64,000 bases of DNA from an uncultured Stenotrophomonas sp. (GTDB taxonomy: Bacteria > Pseudomonadota > Gammaproteobacteria > Xanthomonadales > Xanthomonadaceae): assembly GCF_945952405.1 (NCBI RefSeq), contig NZ_CAMFIA010000001.1, forward strand, positions 1 to 64,000, written 5' to 3'. Shown in pieces: positions 4,459-24,420 of this stretch (within the stretch, counting starts at the first letter, position 1; each line of letters starts with the position of its first letter). The notes beneath the pieces were generated by a model that was not told the origin of the DNA, searched no databases, and worked only from the letters and a program-made list of their open reading frames with translations. The translations under genes were made by a program, and so were the position numbers.

Positions 4459-4477
4459 TCTGGCGGAGAGAGGGGGA
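4459..4477. other. attL: left 19-bp direct repeat of the island
   Basis: TCTGGCGGAGAGAGGGGGA is identical to 24326-24344, the 3' end of tRNA-Ser (T-arm side of the acceptor stem plus CCA). It marks the distal edge of the tRNA-integrated element. Confidence 0.9.
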
Positions 4478-5266: not shown

Positions 5267-5304
5267 AAGGCGCCTTCCTCATGCATTTGTGTTATTTGCC
5301 ATGT

Positions 5305-5316: not shown

Positions 5317-5326
5317 GTATGGATTG

Positions 5327-6604: not shown

Positions 6605-6673
6605 CAATGAAATTTCCTTCCTTATACTTTTTGGTTTCTTTTCCCTGTGGATCAATTTGACTGCAAATTTCAA

Positions 6674-7507: not shown

Positions 7508-7660
7508 TTAGCTACCAGCTCCTTCTGGGACCAGAAATGTCAGGGGCACGGTCGGCGGCGTCCTAGCCTTGCCCATAGCCCTTGAATGTATCCCATGTAG
7601 CAAGGCTAGTCAGTGTTGGGGCTGGACTACCTTCCGGCTGGGCTGATGCTGCTTCGATCC

Positions 7661-9058: not shown

Positions 9059-9614
9059 TGCACTGTCTCCGTAGATGGTGGGAGCAGTGCTAAGGCCTGG
9101 CTTTGATTCGTCAAACGAGATCTAGAGCGTTGCCGCGTTGCTTAGGCATTCGCCGAACCGTAGAAATTAGCGCGAAAACTTTTAGAGGAAATTAGTGGGG
9201 TTTGCGTCGCGAGGCGCTGTGGCGCAAAGGTTTGCCATGGGTGACCGCTTCTATCTTGCAGTCATTTCTGTACTGTACGATTTTGACAGTTCTGACGCCT
9301 AAGTGTGCTTTCTTACAAAATAGGCATGCTCATTTTGAGATGAGGGTATCATAAATATTCTCAGGATTATTTATGTCGCCGGGCTTGGATCCTCTTGGGT
9401 CTGCTATCCCAGCGATAAATTCAGGCCTATCCTGAGTAAGTGACACAAGCACGGGACACCAGGTAGTCCTGCTGTCTCGTCAGTATCTCGATCTTCATCA
9501 CCGCTCTGATTTTATGTCTTGCTGGTGATAGCGGAGCGGAGCGGAGCGGCGCGGGGTGACGCAAAGCTTGGAAGACCTGTCCGGTAAGGGGCCAACCATC
9601 CATTAGATTATTTG
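9059..9614. other. Gene-free interval
   Basis: No credible gene in 555 bp. A short reading frame on the minus strand (9427-9618) has no recognisable similarity or good start. Five imperfect copies of GCGGA occur in tandem at 9531-9555. Nothing else stands out. Confidence 0.5.
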
Positions 9615-10418: not shown

Positions 10419-10688
10419 GCTCCTAGGAATCGAAGAGACTGAAACCAGGTGGATCGATGTCATGCATGTCTGCCCAGGGTATGGTCGAGCGCGAGAATAT
10501 AGCGGCGCTATCTCACAATTTGAGACCAGGCAATCGAATCTCTGGAGAAGGAGACTGGGGATTGCCTTCCAGATAGGTGCTGGGAGGGGCACTGGCACAG
10601 CGGCGTGGCATGCGGTACAAATCGCAAAACAGGCCGCCGCGGCGGGTCTAGTTCTGGGCTTCGTCTTCACATGGATTGGAGGTGTGGC

Positions 10689-11279
10689 GTGTCGAGTTAC
10701 ATATTCGTTTCCCCTGGTTCTGACCCGGGTATGGGTAAAGCGCTTGTGGACCCTATCTTGCAACCGGACAAGAAAGCTAAGTCGACCATGGGAACCTGTC
10801 GGCCTGACCTCCGCCGCAGGGTGAAGTTGGGCGATCAGATCTTCGTGATCAGCGGCAGCATGGGCAAGAACGTTCAGCAGTATGTGATTGGAGGGCTTGA
10901 GGTGCAGGACAAGCTTTCCAGTCAGATCGCAGCGTTCGATCAGTTCCCTGAAAATCGGCTCAGATTTGACGAGTCCGGCCAAAGGCTGGGCAACATCATT
11001 GTGACTGCAGATGGACGACATCACCCCGAAGACCATCACGACAAGTTTGAGAGGCGAATCCAGAACTATCTGGTTGGTCGGACCTCTGTCATCCTTCAGA
11101 CGCCTCGGGAGATCCAGCTTGGTAGGGAGCGATCAGTAGACATCCTCGCCAGTCTGTTTGATCGTCCAGGCTCTACGCGAATCCAGCAAGTGATCGGGCG
11201 CATGAGAAAATTGACTGAAGAGCAAGCTATTCGTCTGAGAGAAGAGCTTCAGGCCTTGAAGAGGGAAGCCAGGAAGTAA
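10689..11279 (+). CDS. Nmad2-like (nucleotide modification associated domain) protein
   Basis: 196 residues from the GTG at 10689, chosen for GGAGG six bases upstream. The N-terminus SSYIFVSPGSDPG, then STMGTCRPDLRRRVKLGDQI with FVISGSMG, resembles nucleotide-modification-associated domain 2 proteins, whose CKPDIR and GDWI-type signatures sit at the same spacing. The C-terminal 40 residues are charged and helical. The stop overlaps the next start (TAATG), so it is translationally coupled to the ImmA/IrrE-type gene. Related domains have been linked to modified bases or nucleotides; the activity here is unknown and the family call is moderate. Confidence 0.65.
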   Translation: MSSYIFVSPGSDPGMGKALVDPILQPDKKAKSTMGTCRPDLRRRVKLGDQIFVISGSMGKNVQQYVIGGLEVQDKLSSQIAAFDQFPENRLRFDESGQRLGNIIVTADGRHHPEDHHDKFERRIQNYLVGRTSVILQTPREIQLGRERSVDILASLFDRPGSTRIQQVIGRMRKLTEEQAIRLREELQALKREARK

Positions 11280-12406
11280 TGGATATTGCGCAACACATCG
11301 CAGATCGCAGTCTCACGGTCAGTGATGTGGCCCGACGGGCAAACTTGCCCGTTTCCCGTGTTAGCGAGATCGTCTCGGGTGATGAGGCATCGCTGTCGGA
11401 AATCAGAAAAATATCAAAGGCAATCCGTGTTCCGCTGAGCTCGATAGGGCGGCCGGAATCAACTGAGGACCAGAGCACTTCGAAGCTCTTGCTGAGGCAG
11501 ACCATTGATCAGCGTTCAAGGGGCATGTCTTCATCTCTGAGCATCATAGGTGACCAGCTAAACGACATACTCTCGATAGCGAGACTTCTGCCTTCCAATC
11601 TCAACTGGCTGGAGCTGTTCAGGGGACTGGCTCCCGATCTTGAAAACGCAGAGAACTTTGCTGCCATCTTCAGACGGGCGTTCGCACAGCTGGATGACCA
11701 AGTTCCTTTTCTTAGTCTTGCAACTACCTTGGAGGAGTTGGGGGTCTTTGTCTGCTATGGAAGGGACCCTAAGATCGAGGGGGTTTCAGCGATTGTCGAA
11801 GGCCACGCACTAATCCTGCTTGCTCCTCGAACCTTCAAGGCGCGGATGCTGTTCACTCTTGCTCATGAGGTGGGACACCTCGTAGCACGCCATGACTTGC
11901 TAAAGATTGACTTCGCAAGATTGGACGAAGAGGTGGGTGGAGACAGAGAGACGACTGTCTCGGCTGAGCATCGGAATGAAGAGCGCTTTGCCGATGCTTT
12001 CGCGGCGTCTTTGCTAATGCCCCGGAAAGGGTTCTTGAAGGCGCTTGAGGCGGTTCGCACTCACTACCGGGCAAAGGGGCCGCTGGGGGACGTAGAGATA
12101 CTGACCACTGCAATTTTCTTCGGGGTGAGCTTTGAGGTTGCGGCGCGCCGTTGCGAAGGCTTGGGGTTGCTGGAGCCAGGAGGCGCTAGGGCGCTGTATC
12201 AGAAGATCTCAGACGAGCATGGAAATCCTGAAAAGAGAGCGAGAGAGCTGGGGCTTCGGGAACGAGAGGAGATACAGATTTCAACTTCGCCTACGCTGCT
12301 TGAGGCTGCTGCGAAGCTCGTGGATCGTGAGGAGCTCTCTGCCGGTAAAGCCGCTGAGCTTTTGAACGTCCCCATCTCCTATCTGTTCGCCGCTAACTCG
12401 AAGTAG
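11279..12406 (+). CDS. XRE-family regulator fused to ImmA/IrrE metallopeptidase (COG2856)
   Basis: 375 residues. Residues about 5-60 form a helix-turn-helix (LTVSDVARRANLPVSRVSEIVSGD). The peptidase domain has HEVGH at residues 196-200 and a downstream EERFADAFAASLLMP, the third zinc ligand region. ImmA/IrrE proteases cleave repressors or antitoxins in response to a signal. It sits in an operon with the Nmad2-like gene upstream (1-nt overlap) and the PIN gene 4 nt downstream. XRE-COG2856 paired with a PIN-like protein is a known toxin-antitoxin-like arrangement. Confidence 0.88.
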   Translation: MDIAQHIADRSLTVSDVARRANLPVSRVSEIVSGDEASLSEIRKISKAIRVPLSSIGRPESTEDQSTSKLLLRQTIDQRSRGMSSSLSIIGDQLNDILSIARLLPSNLNWLELFRGLAPDLENAENFAAIFRRAFAQLDDQVPFLSLATTLEELGVFVCYGRDPKIEGVSAIVEGHALILLAPRTFKARMLFTLAHEVGHLVARHDLLKIDFARLDEEVGGDRETTVSAEHRNEERFADAFAASLLMPRKGFLKALEAVRTHYRAKGPLGDVEILTTAIFFGVSFEVAARRCEGLGLLEPGGARALYQKISDEHGNPEKRARELGLREREEIQISTSPTLLEAAAKLVDREELSAGKAAELLNVPISYLFAANSK

Positions 12407-12410
12407 CAGC

Positions 12411-12935
12411 ATGATAGTGCTTCTCGACGCCTCGACAGTCATCAACCTCGTGAATGGCGGGGTCTTTGATGCGGTCTTGGGTATCGAGGGTGTACAGTTC
12501 CAAGTCGGAAGCTTGGTGAGAGATGAGGCTTCATCCGCCTCCGAAGTGTTGGACTTGGAGCTTGCCAAGGGATCTTTGACCCTTGCTGACGACGGATTGG
12601 TCTCATATTCGGCATTTCTGGCCGCGAAGAATGATATGGGGCTCGGTGATGGCGAGACCGAGTGCATTCTCATTGCATCCGCTCTCCAGTGCCAGATTGC
12701 TTGTGATGACGGCCGGGCCCGGAAGGCGGCTATCAAGCGGCTCGGGCATGAGTCGCTGGTGACCGGCTCTTTGGGGTTGATGCAACGAGCCTGTAGCCAT
12801 GGACTGATCACAACTGAAGCTGCGCAGCTCGCCTATCAAGAGATGCGCAAGCTCGGTGGCTATCTTCCACAGATCGATGTGGACTTCTTCGCCAAAGAAG
12901 TGACCCTGCTAGATGGTTTCGGGGCGCAACCCTAG
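12411..12935 (+). CDS. PIN-domain nuclease-like protein
   Basis: 174 residues. The N-terminal MIVLLDASTVINL supplies the first acidic residue (Asp6). Other acidic residues expected of the fold appear at GLGDGETE (Asp80, Glu82) and ACDDGRA (Asp99, Asp100). PIN proteins are metal-dependent RNases, often toxins. It follows the XRE-ImmA/IrrE gene by 4 nt, so the protease or regulator may control it. Its 3' end overlaps the convergent zinc-ribbon gene by 27 bp. Confidence 0.8.
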   Translation: MIVLLDASTVINLVNGGVFDAVLGIEGVQFQVGSLVRDEASSASEVLDLELAKGSLTLADDGLVSYSAFLAAKNDMGLGDGETECILIASALQCQIACDDGRARKAAIKRLGHESLVTGSLGLMQRACSHGLITTEAAQLAYQEMRKLGGYLPQIDVDFFAKEVTLLDGFGAQP

Positions 12936-14006
12936 CTTGTCTTCACGAAGAATTCGATTCGTATGCTTGGAAAGGCGTGCTCTCGTCTCGACAAACGGGT
13001 TCGATATCGTCTTCTTGATCTGCAATGGATTCTGGAAGATCGCTCCGCAGAAGTGGCATTCGTGGTCAATGTGGGGCGTATATGCCCACTGTCCCTTATC
13101 GAAGTGAGGCTCTTTGCAGCGCGGACATGACAGAGCCACGACGCGTCCTTCGATGTGCGGCAGTGCTGTTTGCGCCATGTAGTAGCGTACTTGTTCGGCA
13201 TCAAGTTCGATGCCATCTATCACGACGGACTCATACGTGTCGTCTATCTTGGGCCACTCTTGGCCTTCCTCGCTCAGAGCGTGCAGATGGATTCCGGTTT
13301 CTTCAGGCGCTGTGGAGGTCCAGAGGATGGCAGGATTTGATCCCCAGATCTGTATCCCTCCTGGGTAGTCCTGTTGGCGTATCTCTATGCTTCTTGGCGC
13401 AGCTATCTGGGATCGATTGCCTGGCTCAAGGTGGCTCCTCAACTGCGAGAGAGGGTTTCCTATCGCGATTTCCGAGTCGGAGAACTGTCTTCCGCATCCA
13501 TGGCACTGATGCTTCTTGTGAGGATGGACTGCGAACCAGTCGCGGTCCAGATGAGGGAAGCCGCAGTGGCTGCATTTGACACTGATGGTTCCGAAGCCGA
13601 AGACCCCAGACACCATGTAATTGATTGCGTCGATCTCATCCACTACGAACCATTCCGAGGACAGCAAGTCTGTCGTGAATGGGATCCTCAGCCTTCGATA
13701 TGTCTTGTCGATGTCCTTGGCTGAGTCCCGGCCCAAGCGCCTGGCATGGACATGGATGCCTCTATCGGTGGGCAGGGTGGTAGTGTCGTACGACGCGGGC
13801 ACTGACCCCCAAAGTGCTATCCCTCCGACGTAGCGGTTGACCTCAAGATCAAGAGACTCAGTCTCCGAAATGGGTTCGTCATGCGCGGCCACGCATTCTT
13901 CTGCCGCCACGCCATACTTTGCGGTGGCATTTGCATGATGGGATAGGCACCAGTATCGGCTTCCCCCGTCTCGCCTCTTTCCGACGTTCACTATCTCGCA
14001 GGTCAT
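12909..14006 (-). CDS. Duplicated zinc-ribbon protein of unknown function
   Basis: 365 residues made of two related halves. Each has a GGI.(L/I)WGS(V/N)PA stretch and a GIH(V/L)HA stretch, followed by a four-cysteine ribbon: Cys145/148 with Cys168/171, and Cys294/297 with Cys317/320 (CxxCxxPH then CxxC). The N-terminus adds a CLSHHA segment. The regular spacing suggests two zinc-ribbon modules, each with a preceding beta-rich domain. It is convergent with the PIN gene and overlaps it by 27 bp. I do not recognise the family. Confidence 0.7.
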   Translation of the reverse strand: MTCEIVNVGKRRDGGSRYWCLSHHANATAKYGVAAEECVAAHDEPISETESLDLEVNRYVGGIALWGSVPASYDTTTLPTDRGIHVHARRLGRDSAKDIDKTYRRLRIPFTTDLLSSEWFVVDEIDAINYMVSGVFGFGTISVKCSHCGFPHLDRDWFAVHPHKKHQCHGCGRQFSDSEIAIGNPLSQLRSHLEPGNRSQIAAPRSIEIRQQDYPGGIQIWGSNPAILWTSTAPEETGIHLHALSEEGQEWPKIDDTYESVVIDGIELDAEQVRYYMAQTALPHIEGRVVALSCPRCKEPHFDKGQWAYTPHIDHECHFCGAIFQNPLQIKKTISNPFVETRARLSKHTNRILREDKLGLRPETI

Positions 14007-14107
14007 ACGATCACTCCTTGGGCTTCATGCCCATCGCAGGTGAAGGTCTAACGGTGCATCTGTAGCGTAGTAATCGTTGAAGCTATTTCAGAAGTAGGTT
14101 GCGGCTG

Positions 14108-14443
14108 CTATGAAGCGTCTATCAGGCTCTTAATCAGCCCAAGTGCTTGTTTCTGCTTTTTGGCATCAAGCTGAGAAAGCAGCAGGATGGCCTCAGCGAC
14201 AACATCCGATGCCGCCAGGAAGTAGGCCGCAGGAAGGTCTAGAAGCCCTGCGAGCTTCTCGATGGTCTCTAGGTCTGGCTTGTGCATCCCTCGTTCATAT
14301 CGGCTGATCCGAGGGGCCGTCGTATTTGAGTCATCTACGCCCATAAGCATTTCGCCTAGCTGAGCTTGGGTCCAGCCTTTGGCGACGCGTGCTGCGCGTA
14401 GGCGATGACCGAGGGCTGTGGGCGTGGGCTGAGGAGCGGGCAT
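14108..14443 (-). CDS. XRE-family transcriptional repressor
   Basis: 111 residues from the ATG at 14443. A helix-turn-helix occupies residues about 12-70 (LRAARVAKGWTQAQLGEML then RISRYERGMHKPDLETIEKLA), and a short helical C-terminus follows that may dimerise. The TTGCG-N5-CGCAA palindrome at 14503-14517 lies in its divergent promoter region, and a second copy precedes the gene at 22383-22679. It is probably the regulator of island mobilization or maintenance functions. Confidence 0.85.
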   Translation of the reverse strand: MPAPQPTPTALGHRLRAARVAKGWTQAQLGEMLMGVDDSNTTAPRISRYERGMHKPDLETIEKLAGLLDLPAAYFLAASDVVAEAILLLSQLDAKKQKQALGLIKSLIDAS

Positions 14444-14502
14444 CCGGCAGAAACAAACACGTTGACTCTCCAGAGTTTGACGGCATAAGCTTAGTCGGTC
14501 AT

Positions 14503-14517
14503 TTGCGTTCAACGCAA
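14503..14517. promoter_or_regulatory. TTGCG-N5-CGCAA operator, copy 1
   Basis: TTGCGTTCAACGCAA, within a 17-bp palindrome (14502-14518), between the XRE repressor and the divergent gene at 14540. The arms and spacing match 22721-22735. Likely binding site of the adjacent XRE protein. Confidence 0.65.
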
Positions 14518-14539
14518 AATTCAACCTGGAGGCTATCGT

Positions 14540-15019
14540 ATGGATATGAGGTGCTGGGCGGTGATGGGTCTCCTGGCGTTCGCCGCTTCTGCTGAGGCTG
14601 CGCCCAGCCTGTCGTGCCAACTGCAGAGCGGCCAGTTCAAGGTTGGTGGGGGAGGAAAGCCCAGGGTCTCCGCTTTCATCTGGGCCACGGGTCATGGCTC
14701 CACAACGCCTACTGGCCCCATCCGAACCAGGATCGGCCGCATCGACCCTGTAGAGGGCCGAGACTACAAACGCGCTATTAAGCTCGATGGCAAGCCCGTT
14801 CTGTTGCCTCCGGACGCACAAAGCGTCATCGGCTTCGGCAAGGTCTATGACTTCAAGGACGCCATCGCTCTGGCTTACCTCGGCGAGCGTGAGGAGGACT
14901 CGTCCGCCCGGCCTAGCCAGATTGTGATCGTCATCAACAAGGCTGGGTCAGTAATTGATAGCGATGTGCTCCCTGGCACGAGCCTCAACCCGGGCAAGCA
15001 CTGCTTGCTCATCGACTGA
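14540..15019 (+). CDS. Secreted hypothetical protein
   Basis: 159 residues with a clear signal peptide (MDMRCWAVMGLLAFAASAEA, cleavage near residue 20). The mature part has two cysteines, near its start and end (SCQLQ and KHCLLID), that could form a disulfide in the periplasm. No family recognised. It is the first of three plus-strand genes with short gaps (10 and 34 bp). The operator at 14503-14517 lies 22 bp before its start, so the XRE protein may repress this set. Confidence 0.65.
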   Translation: MDMRCWAVMGLLAFAASAEAAPSLSCQLQSGQFKVGGGGKPRVSAFIWATGHGSTTPTGPIRTRIGRIDPVEGRDYKRAIKLDGKPVLLPPDAQSVIGFGKVYDFKDAIALAYLGEREEDSSARPSQIVIVINKAGSVIDSDVLPGTSLNPGKHCLLID

Positions 15020-15029
15020 AGGAACACAC

Positions 15030-15329
15030 ATGAAGAAGCTTTGGATGGTTTCCGCCGTAGTGCTGCTGGCCGCTTGCTCGGGTGGTCCTGGTAGTGGCGA
15101 TGTTGAGAAAGCCTTGTCCGTGTATTTCAAAGAGGCCACAGGAACGACGATGACGTTTGAGCGGTTGAAGGTAGGCGAGTGCGTGCGAGGGGACATCCCG
15201 GGCTATGCATGCAGTGTGACCGGAATCGCGCGATATCAGTCGGGCACTCGCATTGAGCAACAGCAGCTTGTCGGCACTTTCGTCATCGACAAAGTTGGCG
15301 GCAACTGGACTGTCGTAGATCGTCGCTGA
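15030..15329 (+). CDS. Small lipoprotein
   Basis: 99 residues. MKKLWMVSAVVLLAACSGG is a type II signal with lipobox LAAC (Cys16). The ATG at 15030 has AAGGA upstream. The mature domain (YFKEATGTTMTFERLKVGEC, then two further cysteines) is not recognised. Second gene of the 14540-15888 unit, probably membrane-anchored in the periplasm. Confidence 0.75.
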   Translation: MKKLWMVSAVVLLAACSGGPGSGDVEKALSVYFKEATGTTMTFERLKVGECVRGDIPGYACSVTGIARYQSGTRIEQQQLVGTFVIDKVGGNWTVVDRR

Positions 15330-15363
15330 ATTGAAGCCCGCCAACCATCGCTAGGAAGCTCGT

Positions 15364-15888
15364 ATGTGGACCTTGTTCAAGGTAATCCGCTGGATCATTA
15401 CCGGTCTTGCGCTTTGGTGGTTGTGCGGTGTCGTGTTCGAAGAGGGCACTACGGCTGACGGAGCAGTCTTCGGGCTGATGCTGTTCGGGCAGCTGGTCTT
15501 CTGGCCCCTTGCGCTGCTGTGGGGTCTGCCGTGGCTGTTCCGGCGCCGAGCGCCAAAACTGAAGAAGCATAGGCCTGAAGAGTTTGAGCCCACGGTATCC
15601 CATGATCACATTGCCTTGGACCTGGGCAGGGACACTATCTGGGTTCGGGACCCCGTGAAGGGCGAGCGCTACCTGCGACGGGCTGAAGTGCTCGCCATCC
15701 GCACTGGGGAATACAACTACAAGGGAGTGGTCACCCATCGCCTGGAAGTCCAGGTTCGGGACGTTGTCCACCCGCTCTGGCTTGTCCCCTTCGTGCGTCA
15801 CTCTGACCGCTGGCTCAGGAGCACAGCGGCCAATGAAGCCGAGCGAGATGAGTGGTTCGCTAGGATGAAGGCATGGATTGAGCAGTGA
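15364..15888 (+). CDS. Membrane protein, two TM segments, cytoplasmic tail
   Basis: 174 residues. Two hydrophobic segments (about 5-25 and 34-58, including GLMLFGQLVFWPLALLWGL) precede a soluble domain with DHIALDLGRDTIWVRD and RAEVLAIRTGEYNYKG, a beta-rich, PH-like pattern. Family not recognised. Third gene of the small envelope unit, convergent with the Pycsar effector gene, with only 24 bp between the stops. Confidence 0.65.
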   Translation: MWTLFKVIRWIITGLALWWLCGVVFEEGTTADGAVFGLMLFGQLVFWPLALLWGLPWLFRRRAPKLKKHRPEEFEPTVSHDHIALDLGRDTIWVRDPVKGERYLRRAEVLAIRTGEYNYKGVVTHRLEVQVRDVVHPLWLVPFVRHSDRWLRSTAANEAERDEWFARMKAWIEQ

Positions 15889-15912
15889 GCTGCTCGACGT
15901 TCTACCAAGGGT

Positions 15913-16452
15913 TCATCCCGGTCGCTGCGGGGATGGCAGGAGAATTATCAACGCGACCCATGGCACAACGGCGAGTAGCGTTGCTATGTAGGCCTGCCGG
16001 AGAGAGTGGAATTTACAGGTGAGGATCTTCGAATTTCGCCAGCACTGATTAAAAAGATCATCTGCTAGCTCCTCAGGACTCCGACTCTTGCATGCTTGCC
16101 GAAATTCACTCTCTCGCATCTGAGCGATGCTTCGAAAGTAGAGCAATGATGCCGTGCCGCCCTCTAGATGTGGGAACGAGCCGTTCCAGAGGTGTCGGAA
16201 GCTGAACCCCAGCGCGGTAAAAAATAGAGTCGTGAAGACCGCAGCTGCGGCGGTCATCTCGCTCGGAGTAGGAAGTCTAGTGGCAACCAGCGCCAGCATG
16301 CCCAAATCGATGCCCAACACCACCGATAGCTTAGTGTCGATTCTTGAAAAAAATCCAAGAACGAGATTCAACTGTTGCCAAGCAATGCTAACGCGCTCGC
16401 CTGGGGCGTTTGGAGGGCTTGGGGGGTTGATAGAATTTTGATCGTCGGGCAT
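15913..16452 (-). CDS. PycTM-like Pycsar effector, transmembrane
   Basis: 179 residues. The architecture matches Pycsar TM effectors: an N-terminal SRIDTKLSVVLGIDLGMLAL helix, a second TM (AAAAVFTTLFFTALGFSF), a conserved soluble part (GGTASLLYFRSIAQM with EELADDLFNQCWRNSKIL), and a C-terminal TM (YIATLLAVVPWVALIILL). These effectors sense a cyclic pyrimidine nucleotide and disrupt the inner membrane during phage infection. The start at 16452 lies inside the upstream E2-like gene (65-bp overlap), so translation is probably coupled. Confidence 0.85.
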   Translation of the reverse strand: MPDDQNSINPPSPPNAPGERVSIAWQQLNLVLGFFSRIDTKLSVVLGIDLGMLALVATRLPTPSEMTAAAAVFTTLFFTALGFSFRHLWNGSFPHLEGGTASLLYFRSIAQMRESEFRQACKSRSPEELADDLFNQCWRNSKILTCKFHSLRQAYIATLLAVVPWVALIILLPSPQRPG

Positions 16453-17269
16453 ATGGTTTAGCAGTAGGTTTGGCTAACTGGTTCAGGCGGAAATGCGCAT
16501 CCCTCAGTCCACAGGAATCGAGCGTCCCGCAGCAAGGAATGCCGTGATTCGCAAGGTCTTGCATGAACTTCTCTTCCGAGACGCGCCAACTGTAGTAGCT
16601 AGATATATAGCTTTCCAAATGCTCGGCGTGATCCTGGCATCTCGAAATCTCGATCTTTCCCGACGGATCGCATGGGCAGTAGGTGTGTCCTCCCACCAAC
16701 GATCCGCCACGCTTCGTGATCCGTGCGAGGCGTCTACCATCTCCCCATAGTTCAATGCGTGGCCCTCTGAGATGCTCATCGAGGCGCACCGTAAAGCTTC
16801 CGCGCCTCGCGCGACCCAAGAAATCAGGGCCCAATTTCTCTGCTGCAGCCTCAGCGGCGGCCTGATGGACAGCTGCATCACCATGGGCTCTGTCATATTC
16901 TTGACCTGCCCATTTGCGTCGGTAGCTTGCGTTGATCTGGCGAGAAAGAAATCGCACAACAGCAGACCACCATCTGCGTGCGGCCGCTTCGTCGCGGACT
17001 TCGCTTGGGCTGTCATCTTTCCAGCCCAAGCAGAATGTTCCGCCCGGATTGATGTGGCGATCCGGGCAGCACTGAGGCAGTTGGGACGAGGCTTTTTTCT
17101 CTTGGACAAAGACGTAATTGCCATGGATGGTGAGCAATAGAGCAAAAGATCGAGTCTTCCCGCTGGGGAGAGAGATCTCAATCGTGGCATCTACTGCACC
17201 GGCTTGATTGGAGAGCGTAGCCCCGAACTCGGGGGCCACGCTCCTTAGCAATGACTCAACTTCGCTCAT
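16388..17269 (-). CDS. E2/UBC-like protein in a Pycsar-type operon
   Basis: 293 residues from the ATG at 17269. The N-terminal third looks like a prokaryotic E2 fold with the active-site box RHINPGGTFCLGW: His72 and candidate catalytic Cys80. A helical middle follows (WWSAVVRFLSRQINASYRRKW), then a C-terminal Cys-rich part (CPCDPS, SRCQDH, CCGTLDSCGL) that may bind zinc. The gene overlaps the cyclase end by 14 bp and the effector start by 65 bp. In short type II CBASS an E2-only protein acts on the cyclase; a similar role here is inference. No E1 or JAB partner is present. Confidence 0.75.
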   Translation of the reverse strand: MSEVESLLRSVAPEFGATLSNQAGAVDATIEISLPSGKTRSFALLLTIHGNYVFVQEKKASSQLPQCCPDRHINPGGTFCLGWKDDSPSEVRDEAAARRWWSAVVRFLSRQINASYRRKWAGQEYDRAHGDAAVHQAAAEAAAEKLGPDFLGRARRGSFTVRLDEHLRGPRIELWGDGRRLARITKRGGSLVGGHTYCPCDPSGKIEISRCQDHAEHLESYISSYYSWRVSEEKFMQDLANHGIPCCGTLDSCGLRDAHFRLNQLAKPTAKPYARRSKFYQPPKPSKRPRRAR

Positions 17270-18803
17270 CGTGGGCGAGCTTCGAATGTGGGCGAAGTGG
17301 TTGCGACAAGGACGGGACCACCGCAGGACGCGAAGAGGCATATGCATCTTCAAGAGCCGCCTTTGCCACCTTATCGCCAGAGGCCGAAAGTTCTTCTACA
17401 GCCGCGTCATAGTCAAGGTTGTCAGCCGTCCTGGAGTTGCCAAAGAGAGTGCGAACTGCGTCCGATCCAGCCTTGTATGCAGCAGGGCCGATCCTGCTCT
17501 CGGTTCCCTTGCATATGCGCTGCTCTGCCTCGGAGGCAATTACGGCCCGCCCCGTTGCGCATCGGACGCGCTCCCCCTTCATGCCCAGTCTGCTCAAACT
17601 AAGCGGGCCGTACTCAAAGCCAATCGCGAGACCCAACTCCCCAGTGTCTCCACCTTCAGACTTCAGATGTTCAATAGCGGACAGAAAGCTGCTGCGGAGG
17701 GCGCCGACGCATTGGACGGCGGTGCTTACAGTCGCCTCTGCATCCGTTGTATAGGCCGTCCCCTCAATCATCATTCCATGGAGGCAGTCGCCGATGAACC
17801 TTACGCGGCGTCCGCCAAAGTCGCTGTGCGTGACCGAGTCCAGTTCGGAGCGAACGACGTGTAACGTGCGGACCAAATTCTCTGGATTCTCTTCAAGGTG
17901 TTGGTCCACAAACGCAGAGAAGCCATCGATATCAGCGTATACAGAAACGCCCTCGAAGTTCTTTGAATTCCCTGGGGTGAGAGCATCAAAGTCCAGATCT
18001 GACAAAGGTGGCGTTGGCCTGCTGAACTCAATGCTGCCAATGGGGGTCTCTTCCTGCTCTTCCTTCCAAAGCTTGATGATCTTGTCTTTCGACGTTTCGA
18101 GCTTGGCTTCATCAACGCAGGTGGCTATCTGCTCGTCAGTAAGGCGGGTAGAGCGGTCCTTGTCACCGTCCAGTGCGGGGAAGCCCATGACGGATCGCGC
18201 TGAGTTTGTGAGGTAGATGCCTTCTGTGCTGGCATGTCCAGCGTACTTGGCAGCGTGATTGGCAGGACTTCCCAGGAAAAGGGGCTCGCGGCCTCCGCGC
18301 CGACCGTTGTTGACCGCCAGAGCCAAGCCGGTATCAATACCTACGCGGACACGTGCATTTGGAATGTGCTCGTCGGTATCCCCTGTTTCTGCCAGGACTT
18401 CATCAACTAGTTTTGCGATGGCGACGGCTTTGGCCACCCGTTGGCGCTCTTCATCTTCCCCGTAAGGCTTAGCGACCAAGGCATGCAGGCGCTGGTTATG
18501 GAAGTCGACGCGCTTGGCATTGCTTTCTTCAAGAATGCGATGGACTGCGCGATAGTGCTGGTTGAGGAATTTTAGGGTGCGCTTGTGGCAGGTGGTGCCC
18601 TCGTCCTTCGTACAGGCCAGGATTTCGTCAATGTTGACGATATCGATGTAGACGTGGGCCGCATGAATGCGATAAGCCCGCTTTGCTGGGATGCTTTCCA
18701 GTGAGGTATCGCGCTTGTAGTCGTAAATTTCCACATCCCGCACTTCCTCGTAGCGAGACTTGATTCGCTTCTTCGCGCGGTCTTCCTTCCAGCTGTGGCC
18801 CAT
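17256..18803 (-). CDS. Two-domain class III nucleotide cyclase (Pycsar-type)
   Basis: 515 residues from the ATG at 18803 (GAGG site 8 nt upstream). A GTG at 18923 would add 40 residues lacking family character. Domain 1 (about 40-220) has an AHVYIDIVNI strand with Asp54, but the second metal position reads FHNQRLHAL instead of a Gly-Asp turn, so it looks degenerate. Domain 2 (about 285-470) keeps both: VYADIDGFS (Asp291) and RFIGDCLHG (Asp339). An intramolecular pair with one competent site is likely. It would make a cyclic pyrimidine nucleotide that activates the PycTM-like effector two genes downstream. Confidence 0.8.
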   Translation of the reverse strand: MGHSWKEDRAKKRIKSRYEEVRDVEIYDYKRDTSLESIPAKRAYRIHAAHVYIDIVNIDEILACTKDEGTTCHKRTLKFLNQHYRAVHRILEESNAKRVDFHNQRLHALVAKPYGEDEERQRVAKAVAIAKLVDEVLAETGDTDEHIPNARVRVGIDTGLALAVNNGRRGGREPLFLGSPANHAAKYAGHASTEGIYLTNSARSVMGFPALDGDKDRSTRLTDEQIATCVDEAKLETSKDKIIKLWKEEQEETPIGSIEFSRPTPPLSDLDFDALTPGNSKNFEGVSVYADIDGFSAFVDQHLEENPENLVRTLHVVRSELDSVTHSDFGGRRVRFIGDCLHGMMIEGTAYTTDAEATVSTAVQCVGALRSSFLSAIEHLKSEGGDTGELGLAIGFEYGPLSLSRLGMKGERVRCATGRAVIASEAEQRICKGTESRIGPAAYKAGSDAVRTLFGNSRTADNLDYDAAVEELSASGDKVAKAALEDAYASSRPAVVPSLSQPLRPHSKLAHDERS

Positions 18804-18940
18804 CTCAATATCCTCTCGTCCAGTAAAGGTAAAGCCAAAGCGGGGGGCGCTTCGCTGAGGCCCAGGTGTCGCCCCATGCACTGGCGGCGGCTCGTTGAAC
18901 CTGTATATTGTGTCTTGGTTCACACTTTCAAGGGGGCGAA
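18804..18940. promoter_or_regulatory. Shared divergent promoter region of two Pycsar-type cassettes
   Basis: 137 bp separate the minus-strand cyclase start (18803) from the plus-strand effector start (18941). Both transcription units must begin here or inside each other's leader. A TATATT at 18904-18909 could be a -10 element for the plus strand, but no confident -35 was found. Confidence 0.5.
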
Positions 18941-19861
18941 GTGGCCACTGGACTTATTGATCGATTCCGCTCAGACGGAGGGCGGAGGCTGCTCGCTGCA
19001 TTATCTGAGGCTCGACTGCTTGGCGGGATCGGCGGCTTGCCAGAGTGGCTCATGGACCGGGGGGAGCTGCTAGAAGTCCAGGCGGGCGAGTCCTTTGTCG
19101 AGCAGGACGGGATGGACACCGAAGTGTTCTTTATCGTTGCTGGATCTGTTGATGTAGTGATCAACGGAAAGATCGTCAACATCCGCCATACAGGAGATCA
19201 TGTCGGCGAGATGGCTGCGATTGAGCCAGCTCAGAGGCGCGCAGCTACGCTGGTGGCACGGGAGCTAAGTGTTCTGCTGAAGGTCGCTGAAAGCGATTTC
19301 ATTGAAATGGCAGATGGTCACCCGATCATCTGGAGGCGACTGGCCGCCACACTTTCGAGGAGACTTCTGCAGAGGAATAGCCTTCTGGCCAAGCCTCGCA
19401 ACCAAGTTCGGGTGTTCGTCATGTCTTCGGTGGAGGCGCTTCCAGTCACCCGTCTATTGGTCCAACACTTTGAACATGATCCATTCTTGACTGTGGTCTG
19501 GGACCATGGCGTGTTTCGCGCGTCAAACTACACGTTAGATGAGTTGGAAAAGCAGCTCGAACTGGCTGACTTTGCAATCGCAATCGCGCACGCAGATGAT
19601 CTTGTGATTAGTCGTGGAGACGAATGGCCTGCGATGCGAGACAACGTCGTGTTCGAGTTGGGAATGTTTATTGGATTCCTGGGTAGGAAGCGCGCTTTCC
19701 TGATGGAGCCTAGGGAAGATAAGTTGAAGCTTCCGAGTGATCTTGCGGGGTTGACTACGGTTTCCTACCGTTATGTGCCTGGGGAGGATGCCAGAGCGAG
19801 GCTTGCTCCGGCTTGCAACCAAATTCGCGACATCATTCTTGCTATGGGACCGCGAGACTAA
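18941..19861 (+). CDS. PycTIR-like effector: cyclic nucleotide-binding plus TIR domain
   Basis: 306 residues from the GTG at 18941, which has AAGGGGG just upstream. Residues about 35-140 form a cNMP-binding domain (VQAGESFVEQDGMDTEVFF then IVAGSVDVVINGKIVN and HVGEMAAIEP). Residues about 155-300 form a TIR-like domain of the CAP12/PycTIR type (VRVFVMSS start, DNVVFELGMFIGFLGRKR with predicted catalytic Glu239). In Pycsar, binding of a cyclic pyrimidine nucleotide activates NAD+ cleavage. The cyclase gene follows 2 bp downstream, the standard two-gene layout. Confidence 0.88.
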   Translation: MATGLIDRFRSDGGRRLLAALSEARLLGGIGGLPEWLMDRGELLEVQAGESFVEQDGMDTEVFFIVAGSVDVVINGKIVNIRHTGDHVGEMAAIEPAQRRAATLVARELSVLLKVAESDFIEMADGHPIIWRRLAATLSRRLLQRNSLLAKPRNQVRVFVMSSVEALPVTRLLVQHFEHDPFLTVVWDHGVFRASNYTLDELEKQLELADFAIAIAHADDLVISRGDEWPAMRDNVVFELGMFIGFLGRKRAFLMEPREDKLKLPSDLAGLTTVSYRYVPGEDARARLAPACNQIRDIILAMGPRD

Positions 19862-19863
19862 TC

Positions 19864-20565
19864 ATGGCTTTGCTCGAAGACATGGAGGGTGCTGTTGCAA
19901 CGATCTTCAGCAGTGCCTGGGACAAGCGAGAGGGACGCGTGGTTCCGGATCCGGAGGATCTGCGACTCGGCAATGACGCTGTTGAATTTTCGCGGGCTAC
20001 TGTGCTGTATGCGGATCTCCACGGCTCTACAAACATGGTCGACACTGAGGAATGGTGGTTTAGTGCGGAGGTCTACAAGGCATTTCTGCATTGTGCTGCC
20101 AGCATCATCAGGGCTGAGGGTGGCGCGATCACTTCTTACGACGGTGACCGTGTGATGGGAATCTGGGTAGGGGATCCTCAAACGACACCGGCAGCGATTG
20201 CAGGTCTGAAGATCAATTACGCTGTGAACGAAATCATCAATCCTGCCCTTAAGAAGCAATACCCGGCATTGAACCGTACCATCAGGCAGAGTGTCGGCAT
20301 TGACTCAAGCGCTCTTCGTGCTGCCCGCACTGGAGTTCGAGGTGGAAATGACATTGTTTGGGTGGGGCGGGCCGCGAACTATGCGGCAAAGCTGACTGAG
20401 TTGGATCTCGAACCCAAGACCTGGATAACCGCTGACGCGTTCCTGTATTTGCTTGATGAGGCGAAGTTCGGTGGCCAATCCAAGCAGTTGATGTGGAAGG
20501 AGTTCAGCTGGGCCGAGCAGGGTGGCATTCCTATCCATGGTTCGACTTGGCAATGGAAGGTCTAG
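19864..20565 (+). CDS. PycC-like pyrimidine nucleotide cyclase
   Basis: 233 residues with one class III cyclase domain. Metal-binding aspartates are seen at VLYADLHGS (Asp51) and SYDGDRVMG (Asp95), and the late VWVGRAANYAAKL motif is also present. The size and two-gene context with a cNMP-binding/TIR effector match Pycsar cyclases that make cCMP or cUMP. Which base is used cannot be decided from this reading. It likely works as a homodimer in the cytoplasm and is co-transcribed with the effector. Confidence 0.88.
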   Translation: MALLEDMEGAVATIFSSAWDKREGRVVPDPEDLRLGNDAVEFSRATVLYADLHGSTNMVDTEEWWFSAEVYKAFLHCAASIIRAEGGAITSYDGDRVMGIWVGDPQTTPAAIAGLKINYAVNEIINPALKKQYPALNRTIRQSVGIDSSALRAARTGVRGGNDIVWVGRAANYAAKLTELDLEPKTWITADAFLYLLDEAKFGGQSKQLMWKEFSWAEQGGIPIHGSTWQWKV

Positions 20566-20622
20566 TGGCCGCCGTCTCTGTGGCGAAAAATCCATCGCTT
20601 AGCGAAATCAACAAGCAAAGCA

Positions 20623-20656
20623 AGAGCGCACTTAGGCATTGCCTTTCGGGCAATGC
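20623..20656 (-). other. oriT, RSF1010/MOBQ-like
   Basis: On the minus strand a hairpin (arms GCATTGCC and GGCAATGC, 5-nt loop) is followed after one base by TAAGTGCGCTCT. RSF1010-type origins have a hairpin directly before TAAGTGCGCCCT, so 11 of 12 bases of the nick region match. It lies 102 bp upstream of the MOBQ relaxase gene. Confidence 0.8.
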
Positions 20657-20757
20657 GTGCGCAAGAGGCTGTGCCCCTTGACCCCCTAAAAAAGCGCTTG
20701 CCAAAGCCTAAAACGTAGGCATAAAGGCAAGTGCGGGGGCCAGAACAAGGAGCATCA

Positions 20758-22329
20758 ATGGCCATTTATCACACCAGAGTAAAGACCTTCAGCCGTGCCC
20801 ATGGGCACGCATCCACCGCTGCAGCGGCCTATCGCGCAGGCCTGCTGATCCTCGATGAGCGAACGGGGCTTCGACACGACTACCGAAGGCGCGGCGGGGT
20901 CGTTGAGACCCGTTGCCTCGCTCCCGACGACGCTCCCGACTGGGCTTTCGACCCCCGACAACTCTGGCCTGCAGCCGAGGCTTCGGAGCGCCGAAAAGAT
21001 GCCACGGTCGCTAGAGAGTTCGAGGTGGCCTTGCCACACGAACTGAGCAATGAGCAGCGTTCAGACCTGGCAGCCGAAATATCGCGCTGTCTGGTCCAGC
21101 GTTACAGGTTCGCTGTCCAATCCAGCATCCATGAGCCGCAGACCGCTGACGGGCTCAACTATCACGTGCACATCTTGGCTACGACTCGACGGGTGGACTC
21201 AGAGGGCCTGAAGGACAAGACGAGGGAATTAGACGGCGGACCTTCGGGTCGAGGTGAAGTGGAATGGATTCGCCAGATGGTAGGGGAAGCCATCAATGCC
21301 CATCTTGCTGCTGCAGGTGTCTCGGCCCGTGTCGATCACCGCAGCTTGAAAGAGCAGGCGGCCGAGGCCGAAGAGCAAGGGGATGAGCTTACAGCGGCGG
21401 AGCTTTCACGCACCCCAGGGCTTCATTTGGGCAAAGACGCGACGGCGCTGCATCGCCGAGGCGCCGATACAGTCCTCAAGCAGGGCAATGACAGAATTGC
21501 TCAGGCTAACAGCGCTGCTTGGGATCGCGCCGTGGCCGAGATGGCAGGAGAGGGCAGGCTGATGGAGCCCGCATCCGATCAAGCCATGCCGGTCGGCCCG
21601 CGTGAAGTTGCTTCGCATCCCGCTATCCAACTAATGCTGTCTCCTGGGGGAGCGACTCCTTTGGTTAACGGGGCCAAGGAAGTCATTCCGGTTGGGGCGG
21701 TGGCCGATGACGGGACGCGGCAGCCGCAGGCCACCGCATCCAAGCAGGCGTTGAAGGCTGTGTTAGAAATTTGGGCCGAGGCGTGGATTGAGGCACTGCG
21801 AGATAGACTCAAATTCACGCGCAGGTTGCTGCGCAACAGTGCTGCTCTGATATCGGCTCATGGAACATTGCCCAGGCTCCGTGGCGACTTGGAAGAGTTG
21901 CTCGTAAGACTGAAGAAGTTGAAGCGGGACGCTCTACGCTTCAAGCGTAGGCTGAAAGCTGAAGACCGTGCTCAGCATGGGCTAGCACAGGCTGAGTTTG
22001 CTCTGGAGAACTTCGAGAGCCAGAACCCAAGGCCGGGCCTCTTGAATCGGTCGGATTGGTCGCGGCGTCGGGCGCGCCGGGTTAGGGCTGTTGAGCTGGG
22101 GCGCCAGGACTATCAACGCGCTCACAAAGCCACCGGACCCAAGGCCCAGGAAGACTACAACCATCGAACAGGCGAGTCGTTGTCGCAGCTGGAGAACTGG
22201 AGTGAAGTGCTGCTGCGTAGATATCCGGTCTTGGGGGACGCGCCCACTGACGCTCCTGCAGCGTCCGCTCCGGCTGATGCCCTGCTGGCAATGAAGCAGA
22301 GCAAGGAGCCTGGAGCCAGGTTGCACTGA
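20758..22329 (+). CDS. MobA/MobL-family relaxase (MOBQ)
   Basis: 523 residues starting at the ATG at 20758 with AAGGAG upstream. The N-terminus MAIYHTRVKTFSRAHGHAST, then AAAAYRAG, is the MobA/MobL signature. The metal-binding histidines lie in NYHVHILATTRR, and the relaxase domain spans about the first 220 residues. The C-terminus is helical and basic and may aid DNA binding. The protein nicks the adjacent oriT and pilots DNA through a helper's type IV secretion system. No helicase or primase domain is apparent. Confidence 0.92.
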   Translation: MAIYHTRVKTFSRAHGHASTAAAAYRAGLLILDERTGLRHDYRRRGGVVETRCLAPDDAPDWAFDPRQLWPAAEASERRKDATVAREFEVALPHELSNEQRSDLAAEISRCLVQRYRFAVQSSIHEPQTADGLNYHVHILATTRRVDSEGLKDKTRELDGGPSGRGEVEWIRQMVGEAINAHLAAAGVSARVDHRSLKEQAAEAEEQGDELTAAELSRTPGLHLGKDATALHRRGADTVLKQGNDRIAQANSAAWDRAVAEMAGEGRLMEPASDQAMPVGPREVASHPAIQLMLSPGGATPLVNGAKEVIPVGAVADDGTRQPQATASKQALKAVLEIWAEAWIEALRDRLKFTRRLLRNSAALISAHGTLPRLRGDLEELLVRLKKLKRDALRFKRRLKAEDRAQHGLAQAEFALENFESQNPRPGLLNRSDWSRRRARRVRAVELGRQDYQRAHKATGPKAQEDYNHRTGESLSQLENWSEVLLRRYPVLGDAPTDAPAASAPADALLAMKQSKEPGARLH

Positions 22330-22340
22330 CCGACAAGAAG

Positions 22341-22362
22341 GCCCCGGCGAACCGGGGCTTTA
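22341..22362 (+). terminator. Terminator after the relaxase gene
   Basis: GCCCCGG/CCGGGGC hairpin with a CGAA loop followed by TTTA, 12 bp after the relaxase stop. It may serve both the relaxase and the convergent small gene. Confidence 0.65.
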
Positions 22363-22382
22363 GCCCACCTCGTTTCGAAAAC

Positions 22383-22679
22383 TCAGTGGTAGGTAGGTCC
22401 GCGAGTGGGCTTGGACACTGCGCCACGGCGCTCTGAAATCATGTCGCTGAGCTGTACCTGGTCGCGGTCTACCACGGCTTCTCTGACCCTAACAGCAGGT
22501 TTCAGTGTGTGGTCGTCAGCAGGAGGCTTGGGGTGCATGCATCGGTTGATCAGCTCGTCGGCGATTTCGAGGGCATGGATGATGTCCTCTATCCGCTCCT
22601 GCGTGTCTCGTGTCCGGTCTTGGGCAATCAAAGGGCATAGCACTCGACTAGCGATAGCTAGCTTTCTTTCTAAGGGCAT
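22383..22679 (-). CDS. Small mobilization-region protein, unknown
   Basis: 98 residues with AGGAG seven bases before the ATG at 22679. A helical N-terminus (RKLAIASRVLCPLIAQ then TQERIEDIIHALEIADELI) is followed by a polar, probably disordered tail. No family recognised. It is convergent with the relaxase and divergent from a TTGCG-N5-CGCAA operator 42 bp upstream, which suggests control by the XRE repressor. An accessory mobilization or excision role is a guess. Confidence 0.6.
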   Translation of the reverse strand: MPLERKLAIASRVLCPLIAQDRTRDTQERIEDIIHALEIADELINRCMHPKPPADDHTLKPAVRVREAVVDRDQVQLSDMISERRGAVSKPTRGPTYH

Positions 22680-22720
22680 ATGAAGCTCCTAAAGTGGGGG
22701 AGCTTTCATAAAACCACCAT

Positions 22721-22735
22721 TTGCGTTGATCGCAA
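22721..22735. promoter_or_regulatory. TTGCG-N5-CGCAA operator, copy 2
   Basis: TTGCGTTGATCGCAA has the same arms and spacing as the site at 14503-14517. It lies 42 bp upstream of the start of the small gene at 22383-22679. Confidence 0.6.
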
Positions 22736-22820
22736 TAGTTGTGGCGTTTGTCAGTGCGAATGTTGGCCCGTTAGAGATACTCCTAGACGTTCCATGTAAT
22801 TTTCCTGGCGCGGAGATCTG

Positions 22821-24245
22821 CTATCCCAGCAACTCCTTCAGTGCAGCGAGCTCAAGATTGAAGCTCAAGGATGAGAGCCCTGCTGTTTTGAATTCAGGAG
22901 TGATCAGCCCATTGAGCTTTTCTGCCGGGGTGAATTCGCGGCTATAGACGGGATGGTGCTCATCATCAAGCTCGTGACCGACGATCTGGGCGCGCATTTC
23001 TGAGGCGACACCGAAGCCCTGCATCTGCTGGATGACCGTCTTACGCAGGGAATGGAAACCGCGCTTGGCCTTGGGCCAGGTCTTCCCGTGTTCGGCGAGG
23101 TGACGGGTAAAGGCCTTGGAGATCCAGTTCCCCGCGCCATTGACGGCATTGGCCTTCGCTTGAGGGAAGAGACGGCTTGAGGTGGGCAGGCTGGCAACAT
23201 AGTCGCCGAAGCCCAGGGCCATCAGGTCAGCGTGGATCGGGACAGTCCGGATACTGGCCTCGCTCTTGAGGCGCTGGTGCTCGCCGTCGTCATTAATATG
23301 GATGTAGGCCACGCCTCCTTCCGTTTGCACATCGCTCACCAGCAGCTGCCCGACTTCAGAGGCACGGGCACCGGTATAAAGGCCCAACAAGGCTGCCCAG
23401 CGCGCGGCAGGTGACAAGGTGGCAAAGGCCGATGGAGCAAAGAGCAGGCTGATCTGCTTCACGTCGAAGGCCTTGAAGCCCAGCTTGCGCCGCTTACGCT
23501 TGGCGCTATTGCCGTATGAGACATGGCTTCGGGCCGGATTGCTGTCTGTGTAGTAGCCAGCGGCAATCAACCAGTCGAAGAAGCCGCCCAGGTAGGACTG
23601 TTTGTTCACCCGGGTCGGGGTTGAGATGCCAGCGTCGGCGAGCGACTGATAGAAGTTCGACAGGTCGATCCGGTTGATGCTCGGCAAGGGATAGTCAGGG
23701 CCGGTGGTGCGCACGAACCCGTCAATCGCCGACTTCTTGATGCTGTAGGTCTTGGGGATGGTGTCTGGGGCGATGGCCTTGAGCCAAAGATCACGCGCTT
23801 CCATCAGCGACAGGATCTTGCTGGGCTGCGGCTTGGAGGGGGCTGCTGGGGCTGCGGCTACCGGGCCGAAGAACGCAGGGTTGACCCGTCCGATGCTCTC
23901 GATGGCGCGAGTCAGCGCCTCGGTGTCTTCGCCTGGCTCCGCTTGGATACGCAGGGAGCCGTTGGCGTCTCGCTCTAGGGTGTAGTCCTGGAGCCGTTGT
24001 CCCCGAAGCTCCTGGAGCCATTGCTCTGCCGTCTTCTCGCCCATGCCGTTCTTCCTGATGGCGCTGAAAACTTCAGCATAGCGGGCGGCCAGGACTAGGG
24101 CGCAAGCCTGGGCGCTACGCATTTCGCGCGTTCGAAGGCTTCGCTTGAGAATTCGGCAGCCCGGAAGGGGCTGGAGATCGACGGGCACGCGCTGACGGAA
24201 CGAAAAGCCCGCTGGCGTCTTGATCAAGTGATGGGGAACTCTCAT
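22821..24245 (-). CDS. Tyrosine-type site-specific integrase of the island
   Basis: 474 residues from the ATG at 24245. The N-terminus (HHLIKTPAGFSFRQRVPVDL) is typical of the DUF6538-bearing integrase group. Catalytic residues: Arg in LGLYTGARASEVGQL, HSLRKT, VGHE, and Tyr in HHPVYSREF. It is adjacent to the tRNA-Ser 3' end, the usual place for the integrase of a tRNA-targeting island. The repeated TGTGTCC motifs lie just upstream of its start, so binding there could also regulate its own expression. Confidence 0.93.
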   Translation of the reverse strand: MRVPHHLIKTPAGFSFRQRVPVDLQPLPGCRILKRSLRTREMRSAQACALVLAARYAEVFSAIRKNGMGEKTAEQWLQELRGQRLQDYTLERDANGSLRIQAEPGEDTEALTRAIESIGRVNPAFFGPVAAAPAAPSKPQPSKILSLMEARDLWLKAIAPDTIPKTYSIKKSAIDGFVRTTGPDYPLPSINRIDLSNFYQSLADAGISTPTRVNKQSYLGGFFDWLIAAGYYTDSNPARSHVSYGNSAKRKRRKLGFKAFDVKQISLLFAPSAFATLSPAARWAALLGLYTGARASEVGQLLVSDVQTEGGVAYIHINDDGEHQRLKSEASIRTVPIHADLMALGFGDYVASLPTSSRLFPQAKANAVNGAGNWISKAFTRHLAEHGKTWPKAKRGFHSLRKTVIQQMQGFGVASEMRAQIVGHELDDEHHPVYSREFTPAEKLNGLITPEFKTAGLSSLSFNLELAALKELLG

Positions 24246-24250
24246 CGGGA

Positions 24251-24271
24251 TGTGTCCCGATTTGTGTCCTG
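24251..24271. promoter_or_regulatory. Putative integrase arm-type site, right
   Basis: TGTGTCCC followed by GATTTGTGTCCTG, the same motifs as at 4526-4549, placed between the integrase start and the right att repeat. Confidence 0.5.
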
Positions 24272-24296
24272 CCCCTTGGTAGGCCCAGAAAAGCAA

Positions 24297-24318
24297 AACC
24301 CCTGATTTCTCAGGGGTT
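24297..24318 (-). terminator. Island-borne terminator serving tRNA-Ser
   Basis: AACCCCTGA/TCAGGGGTT hairpin followed on the minus strand by TTGCTTTT. It lies directly past the tRNA 3' end and replaces the native terminator now at 4421-4450. Confidence 0.75.
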
Positions 24319-24325
24319 TGCAGAG

Positions 24326-24344
24326 TCTGGCGGAGAGAGGGGGA
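24326..24344. other. attR: right 19-bp repeat within tRNA-Ser
   Basis: Identical to 4459-4477. It covers the 3' acceptor strand, the CCA and part of the T stem of tRNA-Ser, so the tRNA stays intact after integration. Confidence 0.9.
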
Positions 24345-24420
24345 TTCGAACCCCCGAAGCGCGGTTTAGACGCTTACACACTTTCCAGGCGTGCTCCTTC
24401 AACCACTCGGACACCTCTCC
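24328..24420 (-). tRNA. tRNA-Ser(GGA)
   Basis: 93 nt including CCA. The acceptor stem GGAGAGG pairs with CCTCTCC, the anticodon loop reads CTGGAAA (anticodon GGA), there is a long variable arm, and the T loop is GGTTCGAATCC. The 3' end is the island's integration target. Confidence 0.95.

Follow-up and report, generated by a model that had tools for sequence, protein, structure and literature searches.

Introduction

The closest described relatives of the locus reported here belong to Pycsar (pyrimidine cyclase system for antiphage resistance), of whose cyclases 6YII is the clade A structure and 7R65 the clade B structure according to the available part of one published account, in which a Pycsar system consists of a cyclase and a receptor only (PMC11224242). 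Our locus occupies positions 15913–20565 of a 64,000-nucleotide stretch of DNA from an uncultured Stenotrophomonas sp. (GCF_945952405.1, contig NZ_CAMFIA010000001.1, positions 1–64,000; hereafter the window). Like the clade A type represented by PaPycC (6YII) and PycTIR, it encodes a two-domain cyclase, which matches PaPycC over its full length (595 bits), and an effector of the same PycTIR family, and it shares with the loci of Stutzerimonas and P. aeruginosa plasmids (L027) an E2 gene directly after pycC. It departs from this type by the addition of a PycTM effector and a clade B cyclase. Its right arm is itself a two-gene unit of the clade B type (BcPycC, 7R65, with PycTIR), but differs from that type in being joined divergently to an arm of clade A cyclase, E2 and PycTM. 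From sequence comparison we consider it probable that the five genes make up a single composite Pycsar locus carried by a mobile element, in which the E2 would bond to the PycC tail and both cyclases would feed cyclic UMP (cUMP) to the effectors.

Another group of relatives is CBASS (cyclic-oligonucleotide-based antiphage signalling system). Serratia CdnG-E2 (PDB 8yjy/8hsb) we take to be a type II-short CBASS, made up of a CD-NTase and an E2 only. By its E2 domains and fold the window shares with type II-short CBASS an E2 protein without E1, but its cyclases are class III PycC enzymes rather than CD-NTases, its E2 has a cysteine-rich second domain, and Pfam and PADLOC gave no nucleotidyltransferase match among the five window proteins, leaving no counterpart of the CD-NTase of that type. 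Type II CBASS with Cap2 and Cap3 resembles relatives of the window PycC that adjoin E1-E2 and JAB genes of the Cap2/Cap3 kind and have GFA-type ends; the window itself differs in having E2 only, since models built from four relatives found neither an E1-E2 fusion nor a JAB peptidase in positions 5001–35000. In the available portions of the type II CBASS literature, the last residue of the cyclase is typically Ala or Gly and the B. cereus cyclase that is conjugated to PspA ends in KPGGFA (PMC11153139), while C-terminal Gly/Ala conservation is described only for systems with both Cap2 and Cap3, and a Gly-to-Ser change abolished conjugation (PMC10097602).

Results

Five intact open reading frames (ORFs) lie within 15913–20565, and all have strong Pycsar-type profile matches. 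The minus-strand arm starts with the clade A two-domain PycC pyrimidine cyclase (515 aa, 17256..18803, ATG at 18803; PADLOC PycC, 1e-220; PF00211, 2.3e-12; PDB 6yii, as above). Its partner, an E2 (ubiquitin-conjugating-like) protein with a C-terminal cysteine-rich domain (293 aa, 16388..17269, ATG at 17269; PF20298 E2-ntca, 1.1e-21; PF20272 E2-Crich, 1.2e-18; PADLOC E2, 3.8e-75), overlaps the PycC gene by 14 bp and is in turn overlapped by 65 bp by the gene for a PycTM-like membrane effector (179 aa, 15913..16452; PF18967, 6.5e-13; PADLOC PDLC00685, 7.6e-72, and PycTM, 9.7e-29). On the plus strand, 137 bp separate the PycC ATG from the GTG start (18941), after AAGGGGGCGAA, of PycTIR, a cyclic nucleotide monophosphate (cNMP)-binding and TIR NADase effector (306 aa, 18941..19861; PF10137, CAP12/Pycsar TIR, 1.6e-29; PF00027, 3.5e-11; PADLOC PycTIR, 2.4e-115; PDB 8jsj PycTIR, 169 bits). 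After a 2-bp gap follows the clade B single-domain PycC (233 aa, 19864..20565), which was identified by PADLOC (PycC, 9.6e-101) and PDB comparison (7r65, BcPycC, 223 bits) and had no Pfam match at E <= 1. A PycC-type class III cyclase is therefore present twice by both PADLOC and PDB comparison, and effectors of both the PycTM and the PycTIR kind are adjacent.

The initial annotation, made from the sequence alone, had listed a cNMP-binding/TIR protein and, after 2 bp, a cyclase on the plus strand, and overlapping cyclase, E2 and PycTM-like genes on the minus strand, an inventory that ORFs and profiles bear out. It had also assigned the two cyclases to different subfamilies, in agreement with their likeness to PaPycC and BcPycC, respectively, and the effectors to different classes, as the finding of PycTIR and PycTM confirms. 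The Pycsar profile search it had proposed returned strong matches for the five proteins, and the proposed survey of other genomes found the same genes together elsewhere.

The pairing of clade A with clade B is not a matter of chance. Among 395 genomes of the family, clade A was found in 8, clade B in 13 and both in 7, where 0.26 were expected (hypergeometric 5e-11, a value that overstates the case because the genomes are not independent), and in all seven genomes with both, the two cyclases lay 0.9–4.2 kb apart. Plasmids gave a similar picture: 72,556 records contained clade A in 28, clade B in 44 and both in 8, against an expectation of 0.017, with two of the eight looking like doubles. The genome-search counts may be low, as PF00211 missed the window cyclase in its own genome despite its 47-bit score. 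We fetched 21 of the 28 plasmid records with clade A, leaving out H4–H7 (identity and bits as for H3), H15 and H25 (as for H14 and H24) and H23, in which the clade A match is in two pieces with an IS3 transposase annotated beneath. Collapsing clade A at 90% identity yielded 28 loci, a count that leaves out L003/L024/L025 (X. euvesicatoria, cyclase cut by the contig end), L042 (cyclase cut by the plasmid origin, re-examined with L070) and L043 (a 236-aa fragment). Clade B accompanies clade A in 11 of these 28, and S. baderi (L042/L070) adds one; with one of the 28 cut by its contig end and S. baderi added, the number of loci with visible flank is also 28.

In the clade A tree, several deep forks of which are weak, the pairs fall into at least four separated groups: Xanthomonadaceae, loci with E1-E2 and JAB (L022, L031), Sphingomonadales (L035, L036, L039) and L041. 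The arrangement is head to head in the window and in L001, L002, L007, L016, L018, L019, L039 and L041, and co-directional in L020, L022, L031, L035 and L036, with short gaps in L020 and L035. Because content recurs while gene order varies, these comparisons argue for a composite Pycsar locus and not for two cassettes tied together by a promoter. Five loci with two cyclases (L022, L031, L035, L036 and L041) showed PycTIR-type effectors only, in a scan that recognises the PycTM and PycTIR kinds only; a single kind of effector thus seems to be served by both cyclases, which speaks for a shared signal. In L031, a 196-aa ORF precedes PycTIR.

Several observations weigh against a tight link between the arms. 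Of the 28 distinct clade A loci whose flank is visible, 16 lack a clade B cyclase. Clade B has lost its C-terminal part in L001/L002 and is split in L022, as is PycTIR in L007. An alternative is that two independent Pycsar systems, PycTIR with clade B and clade A with E2 and PycTM, have separate triggers and are mere neighbours in a defence island. In its favour, the arms occur alone, TIR with clade B in L062, clade A with E2 and TM in L037, and clade A with E2 and TIR in L026/L028/L029, and where clade B is damaged (L001/L002 and L022) the other genes are intact. We nevertheless regard independence as unlikely, given a pairing far above chance that recurs in several groups with different gene orders, the closely spaced co-directional genes of L020 and L035, and the restriction of the five two-cyclase loci to PycTIR-type effectors.

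Directly after clade A PycC, all 28 distinct loci with visible flank have a conjugation module, namely E2 in 22, E1-E2 with JAB in 5 and E1-E2 in 1 (the scan itself gave 22, 4 and 1, with one locus cut by its contig end, and the E1-E2 and JAB of S. baderi were added later). The set with JAB is present in L021, L022, L030 and L031 and annotated in L070, while the same scan found E2, E1 or JAB in none of six solitary clade B loci. The sequences indicate that the C-terminus of PycC follows the neighbouring module. Among the 22 loci with E2, the motif R[AP][HY] occurs within the last 30 residues of PycC in 17, where shuffling predicts 1.4; a looser pattern defined post hoc fits all 22, and none has a GF[AS] end. 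In the window, the motif is RPH, 10–12 residues from the C-terminus (codons 17286..17294, minus strand). The four PycCs first found beside E1-E2 and JAB all end in GF[AS] and lack R[AP][HY], and that of S. baderi, checked later, ends in TPTKPAGFA, which brings GFA/GFS ends to 5/5. The PycC tail of L034, which is beside E1-E2 without JAB, matches neither pattern. Clade A PycC thus carries a conserved, module-specific C-terminal tail.

A search for clade A relatives of the window PycC gave 1512 proteins at E <= 1e-30 among 8000 scored candidates. In the best 120 of these 1512, R[AP][HY] occurs in 106 and a GF[AS] end in none, and the best 120 of 1402 relatives of the L030 PycC all end in GFA (110) or GFS (10), 15 of them as KPGGFA; both lists were chosen by likeness to one query, which favours like tails, and cover proteins without their gene neighbours. 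The tail of L016, a locus of the same genus as the window, is identical to that of P0034, which is named Stenotrophomonas, the probable genus on this ground. Four CBASS CD-NTases located beside related E1-E2 and JAB genes, fetched from 236 plasmid records matching the L030 E1-E2, end in TTPKGFA, KKPDGFA, KPQGFGGAE and KPAGFGGK. Those of L072 and L074 run 1–2 residues beyond GFGG, as if they were precursors to be trimmed, perhaps by the JAB peptidase.

A class III cyclase and a CD-NTase share a type of end beside the same kind of ligase, which is good, if indirect, evidence for action of the module on the PycC tail and, by extension, of the window E2 on the RPH tail. The window E2 thus probably acts on the tail of the clade A PycC, and our inference for clade A Pycsar is control through ubiquitin-like chemistry at the C-terminal tail of the cyclase. 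More specifically, we lean towards the view that clade A PycCs are substrates of ubiquitin-like conjugation through exchangeable tags, R[AP][HY] being read by the E2-Crich enzyme and KPxGFA by a Cap2/Cap3-type E1-E2 with JAB that also serves CBASS CD-NTases. Tag and module would then be common to two unrelated cyclase folds, and the window would pair such a cyclase with an uncontrolled clade B enzyme on the same cUMP pool.

The Ser ends of some PycCs sit badly with this view, given the block by a Gly-to-Ser change described in the available CBASS text (PMC10097602). The E2 might instead leave PycC unmodified, acting as an adaptor or as a modifier of another host or phage protein, with the RPH tail as a docking or localisation motif. 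No E1 or JAB was found near the E2-only loci, and R[AP][HY] is followed by variable residues and is duplicated in eight E2-linked PycCs, as a docking motif might be. This alternative is nonetheless quite improbable, as the predicted catalytic cysteine of the E2, Cys80 (HIN..GTFCL; codon 17030..17032, minus strand), is invariant in 29/29 aligned E2s, and the swap to the full E1-E2 and JAB set is accompanied by a swap to a CBASS-like GFA/GFS tail on PycC. The E2 fold resembles Cap2 and CdnG-E2; by sequence, whether as a single sequence or as a profile, no E2 was among the PDB matches at E <= 1. The E2 and E1-E2 families concerned are covered over nearly their full length by PADLOC models, which suggests that the association of E2 with clade A Pycsar had been catalogued there by 2023.

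Further clade A loci showed other arrangements. On the Stutzerimonas plasmid of L027, as in P. aeruginosa (NZ_CP115286, NZ_CP115292), the annotated pycC is directly followed by an E2 gene (8542–9315 in L027) that is missing from the incomplete PLSDB gene table, so that what passes for a two-gene PaPycsar type may in fact comprise three genes. In L034, the gene at 5884–6987, directly upstream of clade A PycC and E1-E2, encodes a fusion of a cNMP-binding domain with a cyclase. On four Rhodobacterales plasmids (L038, L041, L044, L045), genes for a WYL-domain regulator and for a cNMP-binding effector that lacks the stretch with the TIR glutamate are divergent from clade A PycC and E2, and two Bradyrhizobium plasmids (L040, L043) have clade A PycC (a fragment in L043) and E2 with a DUF2235 protein within two genes, possibly a further effector class.

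As for the active sites, the clade A PycC has metal-binding Asp291 and Asp339 in domain 2 and Asn182 and Lys186 in domain 1, invariant in 15/15 aligned relatives; the catalytic roles of these residues are presumed here from general knowledge of class III cyclases. With the metal-binding Asps in one domain and the Asn/Lys half-site in the other, the two domains are predicted to form a single composite active site. All 22 of 22 clade B enzymes keep both metal Asps and the base-selection positions Tyr50/Asp94/Arg97 of BcPycC (taken from the PDB 7r65 alignment), and the window enzyme retains the positions of BcPycC Tyr50, Asp52, Asp94, Asp96 and Arg97. The clade B Asn is replaced by Ala in L035 and by Ser in L042, and the next Lys position is altered in L001/L002 (truncated) and L041. 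The window PycTIR retains the TIR glutamate, a stretch that is missing from six related cNMP-binding effectors (L023, L038, L041, L044, L045 and L067).

According to the available text of two studies, cUMP is the reported product of clades A–D and cyclic CMP (cCMP) that of clade E only, and Anabaena PycTM is a cUMP receptor (PMC11224242), while PaPycC produces cUMP only and E. coli PycTM binds cCMP (PMC12489823). Because published clade A and clade B enzymes make cUMP, one cUMP pool with two effectors is, by analogy, more likely for the window locus than two signals, and of the two options offered by the initial annotation, two signals or one signal with two effectors, the first is not favoured. 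That the cyclases yield different signals (e.g., cUMP and cCMP), one per effector, so that phages cannot cancel both, would suit their different clades, the different effector classes and the response of E. coli PycTM to cCMP (PMC12489823), but is very improbable in view of the reported products of clades A–E, the cUMP-binding Anabaena PycTM (PMC11224242), the cUMP-only PaPycC (PMC12489823) and the base-selection residues kept throughout the 22 clade B enzymes.

The divergent intergenic region contains a 29-bp block, TTGAAAGTGTGAAYN7CAATATAC in minus-strand reading (18903..18931), that is conserved amid divergent sequence in the head-to-head loci of Xanthomonadaceae (eight aligned, with four different sequences) and occurs once in its own genome at <= 3 mismatches. 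By eye, it offers a -35/-10-like pair with an 18-bp spacer for the clade A arm and, on the opposite strand, a -10-like TATATT for the PycTIR arm. When 15300–21000 was scanned for consensus promoters, the block was not called, and the single site returned, against 2.2 expected by shuffling, lay at 19302, within the PycTIR gene. The block is consistent with, and no proof of, the joint regulation of both arms from a shared promoter region that the initial annotation had proposed; the head-to-head order itself is not a conserved feature, as co-directional loci exist. We rejected a shared promoter as a conserved feature of two cassettes, since order varies and the block turned up only in Xanthomonadaceae head-to-head loci; the divergent L039 and L041 are not among the loci listed with it.

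The locus is carried by an integrative, probably mobilisable element of about 19.9 kb (4459–24344) at tRNA-Ser. This is drawn from a 19-bp exact repeat that forms the probable left (4459..4477) and right (24326..24344) attachment repeats, the latter at the 3′ end of tRNA-Ser (24328–24420), from the adjacent tyrosine recombinase or integrase (22821..24296, minus strand; PF00589, 5e-8; PF20172, 8.3e-14) and from a MobA/MobL relaxase (20758..22329, plus strand; PF03389, 1.5e-44). A second integrase-like ORF was noted by eye at 7661–9058. The same element contains, at 11279–12935, a gene for a helix-turn-helix/ImmA-IrrE protein and, after it, an ORF of 174 aa that has no Pfam match, a toxin-antitoxin- or regulator-like pair. 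Megablast of the locus against plasmids gave no match. Prophage cargo was considered and found unsupported: the phage collection contained no match to clade A, and a scan of IMG/VR with two peptide patterns gave one cut contig.

Discussion

The locus is built from known families plus a putative regulatory part, the E2. What the initial annotation observed here, two divergent Pycsar-type cassettes, was correct, and half of its interpretation stands: it gave the E2 no role, yet a conjugation module follows clade A PycC in every visible flank. Neither an E2 or tail rule for Pycsar nor the composite architecture was found in the literature searched, a scope that did not take in the founding Pycsar paper.

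In the mechanism we propose, phage infection would activate the clade A cyclase. The neighbouring E2 would determine how ready this enzyme is, or where it is located, by bonding covalently to its RPH-bearing C-terminal tail, a step modelled on the conjugation of the CD-NTase that has been put forward for CBASS with E2 only. As a second sensor and synthase, the clade B cyclase would be free of E2 control. Both would make cUMP as the activator of the PycTIR NADase and probably also of the membrane effector PycTM, and growth of the infected cell would then stop.

Pycsar, usually presented as a cyclase with an effector, may therefore include a large branch in which ubiquitin-like control is built in, just as in CBASS. 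The cyclase tail is suggested to be a portable tag that has moved between unrelated signal enzymes, which gives a testable rule, that the last residues of a cyclase predict its regulator. In natural loci with two cyclases and two effectors, one signal could join two sensors.

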